Assembly (NCBI GenBank): GCA_947453695.1
Contig: CANGHW010000024.1
Location: 1-50,574 of the forward strand
Length of the DNA stretch: 50,574 bases
Source: Opitutia bacterium
GTDB lineage: Bacteria; Verrucomicrobiota; Verrucomicrobiia; Opitutales; Opitutaceae
Reading direction: 5' to 3'
Of this stretch, positions 1 to 5,259 are shown piece after piece. The notes below the pieces were generated by a model. It ran no database searches. It was given only the letters and a program-made list of their open reading frames with translations, and was not told where the DNA came from. Made by a program: the position numbers and the translations under genes. The stretch's first letter is position 1; every line of letters begins with the position of its first letter.

Positions 1-1926
1 CCACCCAGCCCGCGCGACTTCGTAAGCGCGCCGCAAGCCGTCGCCTCCATTGGTCGGCCCTTCGGCGCGCAAACTCGCGACTGCCTCCGTGATCTCATTC
101 GCCCGCCTCACCGGCGTCAGCGGCAACACCACACGGGCCTCCGCCGCATAGGCCACCACCGCCACGCGGTCGTCGGCTCGCAACTCACGCAACAACCGCC
201 GCGCCGCCGTTTGCACCAGCGGCAATCGGTCCGCCGCTGCCATCGAGGCTGAGACATCCACGAGCAACACCACACTCTCGGCCGGCCGCGTCGCCGGCTC
301 GCGGGCCGCGCTCACCACCACGCGCACGAGCCGCCGCGTCGCGTCCCAGGGTGCCGCGGCCACCTCCGCCTCCACCGTGATCCCCGGCACCGCTTCCGCC
401 TGCGCCTCAAACGTGGAAAACTTCGCCAACAACTCCGCCACGGAGCCCGCCTTCGTCGCCTGCCAGCGAGCGAACGCCGACTCGCCGGCCTCCAATTTCA
501 GCGGCTCGCGCTCAGCCGCGCCCGGCTCCAACGCCGTGCGCTCGGCCGTTTTCCGCGCACTCCGCGCCTCCCTCGGCGACGTCGCTTTCGGCTTCCCCTC
601 GGACTCGGCCGGCGCCGCTTCGGCCCGCGCGCCATCCACGGCCTGCGGGGCCGCCGGTTGCGCCCCGCCCGGCACCGCGGGCAAGGCCGCCGCCCGACCC
701 GCGCCAGCCTGCCCCGTCCCTTCGCTTGAATTTTTCCGCGCTACGCCTCCGCGTTGCGCCGCCGGATTCTCGCCCCCGCCTGCCGGCTCGGCCCGCGGCG
801 CGCTCTCCAAGGCCGGCTCGCTCGCTCCTTCCGCCCGCAAGGTGGCATCACCTGACGCAGCACTTGCCCCCGGAGAGGTCCCCGCACCTACGCCGTTGCC
901 GCTCACCGGACCGCGCACGTCAGGCGGCACATCCTCCCGCCGCGCCTTCGCGCGCGGCGCAGACACCGCTCCCACCTGGTTGATCTGTTCACCCGTCGCT
1001 CCCGCGCCACCGCCGGCTACGCTCCGACCGGGCCCGAGCGCGCCCGTCCCCCCCGAGGAGCGGGCGAGCTTCCACTCATCGGGCCGTAGATGAAAGTCCT
1101 CCGCTCCCGCCGCAACCGACTCTCGTCCTGCTGCTTTCCGCTGCGTCCACCACCATCCGCCACCCGCCGCGAGCATCACCCCGGCCACGGCAGCAACCCG
1201 CCAGAGCACCCGGCGTTTTCCTCCGCGCGACGTCGCTCCGCCGCCCCCGCGCCGCCGTTTCCGTTGGCGTCCGTCGTCGAGCGCCGCGCTCAGCTCCCGC
1301 GCGATCCGCTGCGCCGTTTCCACACCCGTCCGTGTCTCCGCCTCCTGCTTCATCACCTGCGCAAACGCCGCCCGCTCCTCGGGATCCATTTCGTCCAGCA
1401 CGTAGGCGCTCACGCGGGGATCGTCCATCGCCGCGAGGGCCTTTCGCCCGACCTGCGCCTCGACGAGATGCGAGAGCGCCGAGTGCAGCAGAAACCCGAC
1501 GTTGTGCCGCGAGAGCCCGGCGATCCGGGCCACCGCTTCATCCCCAAATCCGTGCGAAAAGCGCAACCACACGACTTCGCGCTGCTTCGGGGTCAAACGC
1601 CCCACTTCCTCCGCCAGCGATCCCGCCGGCTCATCCTGATCCACCGCCGCCCGCGCCTCGCGCCCGGCTTGGCGCAGTCGGGCCAGCACGAGCTGCCGGC
1701 ACGCCGCAAAGCGCCGCTCGAGCAACCGCTCGTCGTCATCCGCTCCATCCGCCGCGCCTGCGTCGGCCGCGAACACCGCCTCGACGATCCCCGCTGCGGC
1801 CGGCGCCTCGTCCTCGAGCATCCGCGTCGCATAGCGCAGCAACGCCCCGCGGTGCGCCGGGTCCACGGCGGACACGGCGGAGCGACCGTCGGCCGCGCGG
1901 CGCGCGTTGGACGTGGCGATTTCCAT
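1..1926 (-). CDS. ECF sigma-like / anti-sigma-like / vWA fusion protein (3' end outside window)
   Basis: One uninterrupted frame of 642 codons starts at the ATG at 1926 (an in-frame TAA lies at 1939-1941) and leaves the window at base 1. Order seen: a degenerate sigma region 2 (about residues 24-100, with RYATRML like the neighbouring sigma factor); sigma region 4 (about 108-155, LTPKQREVVWLRF and NVGFLLHSA); a segment at 168-188 (DDPRVSAYVLDEMDPEERAA) matching the N-terminus of the next vWA protein; a basic stretch and one membrane helix (about 238-260, ending WWW); a long Ala/Pro/Gly linker; then a vWA domain with MIDAS D557-V-S-A-S and the downstream PTNGG threonine. It resembles the two genes upstream joined into one. 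Inferred role: membrane-tethered signalling. Membrane topology, and whether the sigma part still binds RNA polymerase, are unknown. Confidence 0.85.
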   Translation of the reverse strand, partial: MEIATSNARRAADGRSAVSAVDPAHRGALLRYATRMLEDEAPAAAGIVEAVFAADAGAADGADDDERLLERRFAACRQLVLARLRQAGREARAAVDQDEPAGSLAEEVGRLTPKQREVVWLRFSHGFGDEAVARIAGLSRHNVGFLLHSALSHLVEAQVGRKALAAMDDPRVSAYVLDEMDPEERAAFAQVMKQEAETRTGVETAQRIARELSAALDDGRQRKRRRGGGGATSRGGKRRVLWRVAAVAGVMLAAGGGWWWTQRKAAGRESVAAGAEDFHLRPDEWKLARSSGGTGALGPGRSVAGGGAGATGEQINQVGAVSAPRAKARREDVPPDVRGPVSGNGVGAGTSPGASAASGDATLRAEGASEPALESAPRAEPAGGGENPAAQRGGVARKNSSEGTGQAGAGRAAALPAVPGGAQPAAPQAVDGARAEAAPAESEGKPKATSPREARSARKTAERTALEPGAAEREPLKLEAGESAFARWQATKAGSVAELLAKFSTFEAQAEAVPGITVEAEVAAAPWDATRRLVRVVVSAAREPATRPAESVVLLVDVSASMAAADRLPLVQTAARRLLRELRADDRVAVVAYAAEARVVLPLTPVRRANEITEAVASLRAEGPTNGGDGLRRAYEVARAGW

Positions 1927-2024: not shown

Positions 2025-4619
2025 TCAGCGCTGCTCCACCCACTCTGCATTCCGCGCCAGCTCGATGAACTCGCTGCGGTAGCCACCCGGATCTTCCGCG
2101 GCTCCCGCCTCGGCCCACTCCGCGACACTCGCCATGGTCGCGGTGCCCTTGTGGGGCGACTCGCGCAAAATCATCCCGAAGCCCGCCACCGCCGCCGCGA
2201 ACTTGAAGTCCGGGCTCGCCGCCGCGAACCGCGCACCGCTGTCGACCAGCGGGAAATCCACGCGCGCACTCGAGTTACCATCCGGCTTCTTGTAGCGCAC
2301 TTTTACGAGGAGCATCTCCTTGCTGCGCGGATCGACACGCCCGGGCAGCGTCGCATTGTCCGTCACGCCTCCGAGAAACGTATAGCGCCGCTCCTCGACC
2401 TCCGACTCCTTCGGACCCTCCTTGGCCGCCACGCTGACCGGGATCACCTCATAGAGCGCCGTCACCGTGTGGCCCGCACCAATCTCGCCCGCGTCGACCT
2501 TGTCGTCCGCGAAATCCTCTTTCTTGAGCAACCGATTTTCGTAGCCGATCAGACGGTAACTCGCGACCTGCGACGGGTTGAACTCCACCTGGAGCTTCAC
2601 GTCCTTCGCGATCGTCACGAGCGTGCCGCTCACCTGTTGCACGAGCAGCTTTTCCGCCTCGCGCCGCGAATCGATGTAGCCGTAGTTGCCGTTTCCTTTG
2701 TCCGCCAACTTCTCGAGGGTGCTGTCCTTCAGATTGCCCATGCCGTAACCCAGCACGGTGAGAAACACCCCCGACTGCGCCTTGTCCTGGATCAGGCGCA
2801 CGAGATCGCCTTCGCTCGTCACGCCGACATTGAAGTCGCCGTCCGTGCAAAGAATCACGCGGTTGATCCCACCCTCGACGCGGTTCGCCTTCGCGATGTC
2901 GTAGGCGAGCTGGATGCCCATCGACCCGTTGGTCGAGCCGCCCGGCGCGAGACTGTCGAGCGCCGCCAGAATCTCGCTCGCGCGCGACACCGGCGTCGAG
3001 GGCAGCGCGAGGCCCGACTGGCCCGCATACGTCACGATCGCCACGCGGTCATCGGCGCGGAGTTTGCCGATGAGGAGCCGCATCGACTCCTTCACGAGCG
3101 GCAGGCGGTTGGGAGCATTCATCGAGCCCGAGACATCGAGTAGGAAAACCAAATTCGCCGCCGGCCGTTCCGCCGTCGAGACCTCGCGCCCCTTGAGCCC
3201 GATCCGCACGAGCCGGTGCGCCGGCGCCCACGGCGCGTCGGCCACTTCGAGCGACGCCGCAAACGGCGCCTCGCTCTTCGCCGCCGGCGGGGCGTAGCGA
3301 TACGGGAAATAGTTCAACAACTCATCGATGCGCACCGCATCGCGCGGCGGCCGCTGGTGCGCGAGCAGCATCCGCCGGATATTCGCATAGCTCGCCGTGT
3401 CCGTATCGACCGAGAAGGTCGAGAACGCATTCTGCGCCACGGGCACGAAACCGTTGTCCGGGTTGAAGCTGTAGCTCTCCGTGTTGCCGGTTTTCACAAA
3501 CTCCGCCCCAAATGGCGCCCGCGGCCGGTTCGCCGGCGCACTGGCCTCCGCCGGCGGGGTAAACGCCTTCATGTTCGACACCCCGCCCGCGGCGCCTACT
3601 CCGCCGGTCGCCCGACCGGCAAAGCGCTCGGCCGACACAGTGAACGGCGAGAGAAACATCAATTCGCCGCTCCGGGTGGCGGGAGTCGGCTCGGTCGCAC
3701 CTGACCCGGCAAACTCGGTGCCTTGGGTGATCTCCGCGAGCGAGCTTCCCTTCAGGCCTCGGCTCTCATTGACGATGCTGCCGCGATCACTGTTGGCGGC
3801 CAATTTGCGGGCCTCGGGCACCGTCACCGTCGTCTTCGGACTGACCTCCACCACAAACTTATCGTCCGCCGGAAAGGTCAGCACCCGGCTCTGGGCGACC
3901 TCCGGCCCCGCCGCCGCCAACGTCACAGTCGCCGCCGGCTTGCCCTCCCGCGCGACGGTCGTCGCGCCGCTGGAAGCGAGTTCCGGGTTCGGCAGCAGGC
4001 TGAGGGTCGGCGCCATGGCCGGCCCGGACGGGGCCGAAGCCGGCGACTGCGCGAGTTGCACCGCCCCACTCACGATCGTAGCGCCCGTCGCCACGCTCGT
4101 CGTCACGGACTTTTCCTCTCCGCCGGCCGACGCCACCGGTGCAGTCGACGTCACCGGCGGAGGCGTAGGCGCCCCCACTTCGCGGCCGGGCAGGAGCGCG
4201 TTCATGTCGATATACGTTTTCGCCGTCGCCGTTTCGTGCGGCACGGGCGCGGGGGGCGGTGTGCGCAAGGTTGCGACCAGCGCGAAACACGCCGCGGCGA
4301 GTCCGCCCATGACAAAGTAGAGTTGGGGAAACTGCCCGAGCTTCTGCCAGGGACCGCCATCGTGCCGGCGGTAGTCACGTCCGGGAATAATCGCCGCCTT
4401 GAGCAATTCCTGTGTGGCCCGCTCGGCACCATCGACCGTCTCATCCGCCAACGCAGCTTCGAGTTGCGCCGCCGTCGCGCGGATCTCGTCGACCGTCATC
4501 CGCAGTGCGGGGTTCTGTCGCAGGGCCTGCTCCACGGCCGCACGTTCGTCGCCTTCGAGTTCGCCGAGGGCGTAGGCGGTGATCCGGGGATCATCGGGCA
4601 AAAGTTGGGTGTCGTTCAT
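2025..4619 (-). CDS. YfbK-type vWA protein with anti-sigma-like N-terminus and DUF3520-like C-terminus
   Basis: 864 residues. Residues 9-60 (DDPRITAYALGELEGDERAA) look like the zinc-less anti-sigma N-termini common in Verrucomicrobiota and Planctomycetota. One membrane helix follows at about 99-118, then a low-complexity linker containing LSPFTVSA at 323-330. The YfbK-family block begins near 385 (FSTFSVDTDTASY), with a vWA MIDAS D495-V-S-G-S-M500 and the STNGS threonine loop, and a C-terminal DUF3520-like region. Its start lies 12 bases after the sigma gene stop, so the two are probably co-transcribed. Expected role: a membrane anti-sigma partner presenting an external metal-dependent adhesion domain. 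The domain family is clear; the biological signal is unknown. Confidence 0.88.
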   Translation of the reverse strand: MNDTQLLPDDPRITAYALGELEGDERAAVEQALRQNPALRMTVDEIRATAAQLEAALADETVDGAERATQELLKAAIIPGRDYRRHDGGPWQKLGQFPQLYFVMGGLAAACFALVATLRTPPPAPVPHETATAKTYIDMNALLPGREVGAPTPPPVTSTAPVASAGGEEKSVTTSVATGATIVSGAVQLAQSPASAPSGPAMAPTLSLLPNPELASSGATTVAREGKPAATVTLAAAGPEVAQSRVLTFPADDKFVVEVSPKTTVTVPEARKLAANSDRGSIVNESRGLKGSSLAEITQGTEFAGSGATEPTPATRSGELMFLSPFTVSAERFAGRATGGVGAAGGVSNMKAFTPPAEASAPANRPRAPFGAEFVKTGNTESYSFNPDNGFVPVAQNAFSTFSVDTDTASYANIRRMLLAHQRPPRDAVRIDELLNYFPYRYAPPAAKSEAPFAASLEVADAPWAPAHRLVRIGLKGREVSTAERPAANLVFLLDVSGSMNAPNRLPLVKESMRLLIGKLRADDRVAIVTYAGQSGLALPSTPVSRASEILAALDSLAPGGSTNGSMGIQLAYDIAKANRVEGGINRVILCTDGDFNVGVTSEGDLVRLIQDKAQSGVFLTVLGYGMGNLKDSTLEKLADKGNGNYGYIDSRREAEKLLVQQVSGTLVTIAKDVKLQVEFNPSQVASYRLIGYENRLLKKEDFADDKVDAGEIGAGHTVTALYEVIPVSVAAKEGPKESEVEERRYTFLGGVTDNATLPGRVDPRSKEMLLVKVRYKKPDGNSSARVDFPLVDSGARFAAASPDFKFAAAVAGFGMILRESPHKGTATMASVAEWAEAGAAEDPGGYRSEFIELARNAEWVEQR

Positions 4620-4631
4620 CGTGCGTTCTCC

Positions 4632-5174
4632 TTAGGGCCGCTGCGCGGCGAATTCCGTGCGCAGGCGCGCCACGGCGGTATGAATCAGAAATCCCACATT
4701 CCCCACCGAGAGGGACGTGATGCGGGAAATCTCTTTGTAGCTGAAACCATTTTGAAATTTGAGCCGCACGACCTCCTGTTGGTTCGGCGGCAGGTGCTCG
4801 ATCATTTTGAGGAGCGCCGCGTGCGTCTCCTCCTGCTCCAGAGCCCGCCCCGGACGCGGCTCGGCGGTCGTCACCCGCTCGGCTTCTCCTTCGGCAAAGC
4901 GTTTCATGCGTCCCTCCTTGCGCAACACGTCGAGGGCGCGGTGCCGGCAGACCGTGAATAACCACTCGACGGTGTGCCCGTTGACCGCCTCGGGCGGCTG
5001 GCCCATGAGGCGAACAAACGTGTCCTGCACCACATCGCGCGCCCGGTCCGCGTCGCCCCCGAGGAGGCGTGTCGCATAGCGGGTGAGCGGAGCCTGATGC
5101 TCCGCGAAAGTGCGTTCCAGAAAACCGAGGTCTTCATGCGTCGTAGCCCGTGCATTCGTGGGTTCGTGTGCCAT
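4632..5174 (-). CDS. RNA polymerase sigma factor, ECF subfamily
   Basis: 180 residues from ATG 5174; longer upstream frames lack sigma features. Region 2 lies at about 25-90 (RYATRLLGGDADRARDVVQD, the usual core-binding helix, followed by a WLFTVCRHRALD segment). Region 4 lies at about 125-175 (LPPNQQEVVRLKF and a helix-turn-helix with SYKEISRITSLS). It directs RNA polymerase to alternative promoters and is normally held by a partner anti-sigma. The next gene on the same strand, 12 bases away, has an anti-sigma-like N-terminus and is the obvious partner. It shares Q.EVV.L.F..GF and NVGFL.H.A with the sigma-like part of the fusion gene at 1-1926, which points to local duplication. Its promoter targets are unknown. 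Confidence 0.92.
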   Translation of the reverse strand: MAHEPTNARATTHEDLGFLERTFAEHQAPLTRYATRLLGGDADRARDVVQDTFVRLMGQPPEAVNGHTVEWLFTVCRHRALDVLRKEGRMKRFAEGEAERVTTAEPRPGRALEQEETHAALLKMIEHLPPNQQEVVRLKFQNGFSYKEISRITSLSVGNVGFLIHTAVARLRTEFAAQRP

Positions 5175-5259
5175 GCGGGTTCTCCGGTAATACGCGCGAT
5201 TGCGTGCTTTCTTAGAAAAGAATTTTGCCCCCACTACCAGCCACGGCTTTGCTCCCGGC

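Follow-up and report, generated by a model that had tools for sequence, protein, structure and literature searches.

The stretch of DNA analyzed here (the window) is 50,574 nucleotides from the first base of a contig, C24 in our set, of an Opitutia bacterium in the family Opitutaceae (assembly GCA_947453695.1, contig CANGHW010000024.1). At its first base, on the minus strand, the window carries a fused gene whose product joins a sigma-like domain, an anti-sigma-like segment, a predicted membrane helix and a vWA domain in one chain. This one-chain layout occurs in many genomes, two trees indicate a single origin, region 2 of the sigma-like domain has lost residues that are nearly invariant in intact relatives, the gene is under purifying selection, and an intact pair of sigma and anti-sigma/vWA genes frequently lies on the same strand. 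We tentatively favor the explanation that the fused product is a membrane-tethered, non-transcribing sigma mimic, which its own anti-sigma-like segment is predicted to hold in a clasp and which would swap partners with the neighboring sigma/anti-sigma pair upon a signal from the vWA side.

The frame described in the first-pass annotation of the window was seen again: it runs without stops for 642 codons from an ATG at position 1926 to the contig end, where the gene is truncated. The protein had been expected to continue past base 1, and a search of the same genome with the homolog P0001 found, where contig C320 ends, a C-terminal half that matches with 63% identity. The window covers residues 1-650 of P0001 and the C320 piece residues 652-915; the C320 piece bears YfbK_C in Pfam (38.7 bits, cut-off 25), and the VWA and YfbK_C halves are on different contigs. 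If C24 and C320 adjoin, the complete window protein would have about 900 amino acids. The frame was also correctly taken as a genuine fusion rather than a sequencing error merging two genes, since fused frames are found in separate assemblies and among database proteins and group together in two trees. An internal start that would give a separate anti-sigma/vWA protein was considered and rejected, as the Met at residue 167 of the window protein has no Met at that place in the aligned homologs.

Sigma regions 2 and 4 had both been assigned to the frame, and only region 4 was recovered by Pfam. Sigma70_r4_2 (PF08281) matched residues 104-154 of the window protein with 27.0 bits (cut-off 25.7), and Sigma70_r2 (PF04542) had no match in that protein at E<=1; a search of the own genome with PF04542 did not have the window protein among its matches. 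For a finer comparison, a row set of 20 fused and 101 labelled intact sequences was used after removal of duplicates and of three partial sigma hits. With models for regions 2 and 4 built from the 98 intact rows themselves, the median score of region 2 was 26.8 bits in the 20 fused rows versus 124.1 in the 98 intact rows, and that of region 4 was 48.4 versus 104.4 bits. It appears that region 2 survives as a remnant that is visible only with models from intact relatives.

The residue comparison left out two sigma rows without a vWA neighbor and transferred the truncated L142 to the fused set (20 rows plus L142), and conserved columns were those with the intact residue at >=85% in the 98 intact sigmas. 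On average, the intact residue was kept in 38% of the fused rows across the 26 conserved columns of region 2 and in 60% across the 24 of region 4. Residues that are near-invariant in intact sigmas were almost absent from the fused rows (D27 in 0/21, Q30 in 3/19, K66 in 0/21), with G and E at the D27 and Q30 positions of the window protein. The losses cluster at D27, Q30 and F33 and at D62, K66 and R69, and L10, Y13 and R57 are retained. We take D27, Q30 and F33 to belong to region 2.2 and to serve the binding of core RNA polymerase. Position 109 is T in all 21 fused rows and mostly P (87%) in intact sigmas. Judged from these residues, region 2 of the fused protein no longer resembles that of a working sigma. 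Because of this loss of near-invariant residues, "sigma factor" is too strong a name for the domain, and a non-transcribing mimic becomes likely. In the AlphaFold2 (AF2) model, the sigma-like domain adopts the closed pose known from PhyR and from some sigmas bound to an anti-sigma, and the fold is predicted to be kept while the core- and promoter-contacting residues are lost.

A protein search returned 11 proteins, of which P0009 is partial and P0011 has no sigma part; the other nine, P0001-P0008 and P0010, can be aligned with the window protein over the sigma-like part and on into the vWA domain. The nine database fused proteins have a best identity of 38-56% to any fused locus and are therefore not copies. 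Among 252 Opitutaceae genomes, the fused gene or a contig-edge piece of it was present in at least 22 (listed in the table; G174 and G149 counted from contig-edge pieces), which fall in 5 of 49 genera; about 11 first-look candidates were scored per genome, so these counts are lower bounds. One named copy, L041, is on contig CAMBVX010000043.1 of an Opitutus sp. GAS368 metagenome-assembled genome. An order-wide scan at E<=1e-36 had matches in 5 of 273 genomes, all Opitutaceae, at a threshold that would miss several fused genes of Opitutaceae too, so that other families may also carry such genes.

In the tree of sigma domains, the 20 fused rows and L142, a contig-edge piece, stood on one side of a branch with a Shimodaira-Hasegawa-like approximate likelihood-ratio (SH-aLRT) support of 96. 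The vWA tree likewise had all 20 fused rows on one side of a branch (SH-aLRT 100), together with a contig-edge vWA fragment of L044, which had been labelled intact and is read as a truncated fused gene. Both trees thus support one origin of the fused genes. The fused branches of the sigma tree are long and drew warnings of long branches meeting, so the exact placement among Opitutaceae sigmas is unsure; the vWA tree was built with a simple model, and odd composition was flagged in nine of its rows, eight of them fused.

Ratios of nonsynonymous to synonymous substitution rates (dN/dS) were estimated for three close fused pairs and three intact pairs, two of the intact pairs coming from the same genome pairs. 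In the fused pairs, region 4 had a dN/dS of 0-0.09, the vWA part of 0.12-0.23, the anti-sigma/membrane stretch of 0.18-0.31, the linker between regions 2 and 4 of 0.27-0.58, and the Pro/Ala-rich linker of 0.56-0.60; region 2 had 0.09-0.37 versus 0.04-0.06 in the intact pairs. Because these ratios are low, the fused gene does not look dead, and the values point to purifying selection.

The other parts named in the first-pass annotation were all borne out. The anti-sigma-like segment is homologous to the N-terminus of the neighboring anti-sigma/vWA protein, whose helix 1 (DDPRLTAYALGE) is recognizable in 15 of the 20 fused rows, namely those with the segment detected; the segment was below detection in the other five, and its later part is weakly conserved. 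The zinc-finger family zf-HC2 (PF13490) matched the window protein weakly (E 0.1, 13.2 bits, cut-off 22.2). A hydrophobic, W-rich helix at residues 240-260 follows a K/R-rich stretch; the threshold of the helix scan missed it and flagged residues 592-610 inside the vWA domain instead. A hydrophobic helix is listed in all 19 other fused proteins (with a second hydrophobic stretch at 791-809 in L137), where 5-9 K/R stand in the 15 residues that precede the helix and 0-4 follow it. This excess of K/R before the helix predicts the sigma side to be in the cytoplasm; a single membrane helix is predicted. VWA_2 matched residues 552-639 of the window protein (51.4 bits, cut-off 27), and the metal ion-dependent adhesion site (MIDAS) residues D, S, S, T and D are complete in 19 of the 20 fused rows, the window protein being truncated before the last of them. 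vWF_A (PF12450) had no match in the window protein at E<=1 and is listed for P0002 and P0003. No receiver domain was found in the Pfam and NCBIfam scans of the window part or in the Pfam scan of the C320 part.

Two things had been missed in the earlier annotation: the loss of near-invariant residues in region 2, and an intact, unfused sigma/anti-sigma-vWA pair that adjoins the fused gene. Such intact pairs, which combine a sigma with a YfbK-type anti-sigma/vWA protein and occur in Opitutaceae, Planctomycetes and others, are direct relatives of the fused protein with three homologous parts, and often its neighbors; they differ from it in having two genes, an intact region 2 and usually a CTAAGAA promoter of their own. 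In the window, the fused gene begins 98 nt 3' of the anti-sigma/vWA gene and may be co-transcribed with it. A 252-residue open reading frame (ORF) version of the intact sigma likely starts too early; the probable true start at 5174 lies 17 nt 3' of the end of the TCTAAGAA-N14-CGT element. Whenever a fused gene or its edge piece and an intact sigma gene were in one fetched stretch, which was the case in 17 of the 22 genomes, they were on the same strand (17/17), these loci being related and thus not 17 independent cases. The intact sigma gene lies 3' of the fused gene at no more than 140 nt in ten loci (L044 via its edge piece), at 2.2 kb in one and at 9.3-9.7 kb in four. The window and G174 have the reverse order, with the fused gene after the intact pair, and in G109 the two genes are on separate contigs.

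The sequence upstream of the intact sigma genes carries a predicted promoter of the extracytoplasmic function (ECF) type. CTAAG-N16-CGT occurred in 59 of 87 intact-sigma upstream stretches versus no more than 8 for any such pattern in three shuffles, which preserve base composition only, and in 55 of the 59 it sits 92-124 nt before the sigma domain. CTAA[GT] with CGT at like spacing was also found before the intact sigma in all ten cases where a fused gene or edge piece lies immediately 5' of it. Across Opitutaceae and relatives, CTAAGAA-N14-CGT is strongly conserved before intact sigmas. In contrast, over the 420 nt that precede the sigma-like domain of the fused genes, CTAAG was seen in 0 of 20. 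Because CTAAG stands before the intact sigmas and before none of the fused genes, the intact sigma is likely self-regulated, and the fused genes placed upstream are likely not under the CTAAG promoter.

How the fused protein would work can be sketched from the known sigma mimic of Alphaproteobacteria. According to passages of PMC8103513, the sigma-like domain of the anti-anti-sigma PhyR is degenerate in its core- and promoter-binding regions and captures the anti-sigma NepR. The fused protein resembles PhyR in its sigma-like domain, in the pattern of lost core and promoter residues and in the predicted fold and pose. Unlike PhyR, a response regulator with NepR as its partner, it has no receiver domain listed, and its sigma-like domain is linked to an anti-sigma-like segment, a membrane helix and vWA. 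At rest, the sigma-like domain is predicted to be clasped in cis on its own anti-sigma-like segment. An event on the vWA side would open the clasp, and the freed mimic would bind the anti-sigma domain of the neighbor in competition with the true sigma, as PhyR does with NepR; capture of that anti-sigma would then release the true sigma. Three options had been put forward in the first-pass annotation: release by proteolysis, a sigma that is active at the membrane, and a sigma module reduced to binding. This was a sound set, and the evidence favors the third. A more specific form of the mimic hypothesis, which we regard as possible but doubtful, is a membrane counterpart of PhyR in which the mimic is caged by its built-in anti-sigma segment. 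The vWA domain would sense an envelope event, perhaps a mechanical pull, and thereby uncage the mimic, which would pull off the anti-sigma of the neighbor and so free the true sigma; the system would have arisen in Verrucomicrobiota from a duplicated sigma/anti-sigma pair that fused and decayed. If true, this would be a one-molecule partner switch worked across a membrane.

The distribution of the intact sigma weighs against the proposed partner swap. Four of the 22 fused-gene genomes (G146, G182, G243 and G217) are without an intact sigma of this type. All that is left in G146 is a 142-residue frame with the region-2 part of the intact sigma, directly before the fused gene, and the family genome scans found no intact sigma of this type in the other three. 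Because of these genomes, the fused protein can persist alone, which weakens a role solely in the service of the neighbor.

A rival explanation, which we consider unlikely, is that the fused protein is a second anti-sigma for the intact sigma: its own segment would capture the true sigma, and the sigma-like domain would be a built-in tuning lid. The helix 1 motif DDPR-TAYALGE, recognizable in the 15 rows with the segment detected, fits this idea, as in class I anti-sigma domains it is helix 1 that touches region 4 of the sigma, according to passages of PMC7406223. However, the weak conservation of the later segment, its loss from detection in a quarter of the rows and the compact predicted structure, which suggests that the segment is already occupied in cis, speak against it.

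It is less probable still that region 4 alone, tethered to the membrane, binds DNA at -35-like sites and thereby blocks or helps the intact sigma. The recognition helix is near the intact form in window-type members, eight of nine of which (the window protein and P0001-P0008) have N-V-x-F-L-L-H, with H for N in P0008, and H145 is kept in 90% of the 21 fused rows. Clade-wide, however, N139 is kept in only 38%, V140 in 43% and G141 in 33% of these rows, P0010 has lost the motif except for the H, and the recognition surface is covered by the anti-sigma in the solved class I complexes described in passages of PMC7406223.

Slightly more improbable again is a working ECF sigma that is held at the membrane and freed by proteolysis, like IutY and as proposed for ECF52. 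The order of parts is the same as in those proteins (PMC8999054, in part), region 4 is above the Pfam cut-off, and L121 retains more of region 2 than other fused members. The site-2-protease gene that release would call for has candidates in the own genome, where the M50 family has matches, but M50 matches were likewise present in 14 of 14 control genomes. Against release stand the loss of near-universal intact region-2 residues across the fused clade and the absence of a Sigma70_r2 match in the window protein. Finally, a decaying functionless duplicate, which the long branches and eroded region 2 might suggest, is highly improbable: dN/dS stays well below 1 both in region 4 and in the vWA part, the MIDAS is kept, and in 18 of 20 fused loci the frame spans 837-989 codons from stop to stop (L131 being longer and the window truncated).

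Features of the window and of related loci
Feature	Position	Strand	Evidence
Fused gene, first 642 codons (truncated)	1..1926	-	frame and Pfam; 3' counterpart at own contig C320:3053-3829(-)
Remnant resembling region 2, residues 24-86, lacking several near-invariant residues	1669..1857	-	Pfam, residue comparison, AF2, intact-relative models
Region 4 (Sigma70_r4_2), residues 104-157	1456..1617	-	Pfam, residue comparison, AF2
Anti-sigma-like segment, residues 165-226, helix 1 motif DDPRVSAYVLDE	1249..1434	-	homology and AF2
Membrane helix (predicted), residues 240-260	1147..1209	-	alignment, AF2 helix 236-267
Pro/Ala/Gly-rich linker, residues 266-515, predicted extracytoplasmic	382..1131	-	sequence and alignment
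vWA domain, MIDAS D-x-S-x-S, residues 551-642 (truncated)	1..276	-	Pfam and alignment
Anti-sigma/vWA neighbor, 864 residues: anti-sigma-like N-terminus, membrane helix, vWF_A, VWA, YfbK_C	2025..4619	-	Pfam, homology
Intact ECF sigma neighbor, regions 2 and 4, 180 residues from ATG after GGAG	4632..5174	-	Pfam, start-site context
Predicted ECF-type promoter TCTAAGAA-N14-CGT, 5' of intact sigma gene	5192..5216	-	motif search
Sigma/TonB fusion ORFs	L063:10091-11518, L078:13234-14604, L057:10704-12290	+	Pfam
Genomes with fused gene: G000, G146, G174, G096, G182, G109, G113, G175, G237, G243, G215, G188, G217, G177, G224, G208, G163, G133, G116, G040, G074, G149			

Several further observations concern the intact pairs and their surroundings. 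In the window, a single TAA separates the intact sigma gene from the anti-sigma gene, and the two share a reading frame (4620-4634). Read-through of intact pairs as a source of fused protein was considered as well: 45 of 91 pairs share a frame and are separated by a stop and a short gap, in a collection that favors in-frame pairs, and we make no claim from this. The VWA core is lost, with its flanks kept, in the neighboring anti-sigma of 15 of 93 intact pairs with a vWA gene, a count uncorrected for kinship (L121, L129, L131, L132, L067, L070, L044, L062, L068, L069, L079, L091, L095, L099 and L117); the neighbor in L121 retains vWF_A and YfbK_C. A fused gene is nearby in 7 of the 15 (L044 via its edge piece), and VWA-less neighbors occur both with and without a fused gene, so they were dropped as proof that the fused protein replaces them. 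A genome-wide regulon of the intact sigma gave no signal, TCTAAGAA-N13-15-CGT having 4 sites in the own genome versus 9 for the reversed control. With site counts no higher than the control, TCTAAGAA-N14-CGT also stands on own contig C44 (9439-9463, minus strand), 7 nt before a 155-residue ORF that is ExbD/TolR-like by eye. This ORF is a lead to the vWA "force transducers" found near TolQ/TolR-like genes (PMC12204202, in part). Other sigma fusions were seen too: in ORFs 3' of intact pairs, a TonB C-terminal domain (PF03544) shares one chain with sigma regions 2 and 4, and a 392-residue ORF on own contig C320 (L175:208-1386, minus strand) joins regions 2 and 4 to an SLBB domain.

In line with the first-pass annotation, which knew of no described sigma/vWA fusion of this layout, searches of open-license literature showed none; the 2021 ECF re-classification, outside that scope, may list such a group. 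The fusion of sigma and anti-sigma in a membrane protein is itself already known. Passages of PMC8999054 describe IutY (ECF243) and ECF48/52/53, which likewise have a sigma, an anti-sigma-like segment, a membrane helix and an extracytoplasmic part in one chain. The IutY sigma is active once freed, whereas the fused protein has an eroded region 2, and the outer part of ECF52 is a proline-rich region with a carbohydrate-binding domain, whereas that of the fused protein is vWA-YfbK_C. "VWA" and "von Willebrand" have no occurrences in the main texts of PMC8999054, PMC8103513 and PMC7406223. On the vWA side, the inner-membrane "force transducers" in passages of PMC12204202 likewise have a membrane helix, a proline-rich linker and a YfbK-like vWA domain; no sigma-like domain is described for them, and "sigma" occurs 0 times in that main text. 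YfbK-type vWA proteins share VWA with MIDAS and YfbK_C with the fused protein, whose halves are on C24 and C320. A VWA gene cluster within an ECF regulon, with no fusion, is described in part of PMC12826043. What is new is thus the vWA/YfbK part together with the decayed sigma domain.

To our knowledge, sigma mimicry is known mainly from PhyR. If the fused protein is a mimic, it would be a second case, reached by fusion of a sigma to its own anti-sigma and subsequent loss of sigma function, and would show how such switches can arise. The mimic, the anti-sigma and the true sigma would often be in one cluster, with a recognizable promoter as read-out, and vWA/YfbK-type proteins would be tied to sigma signaling.
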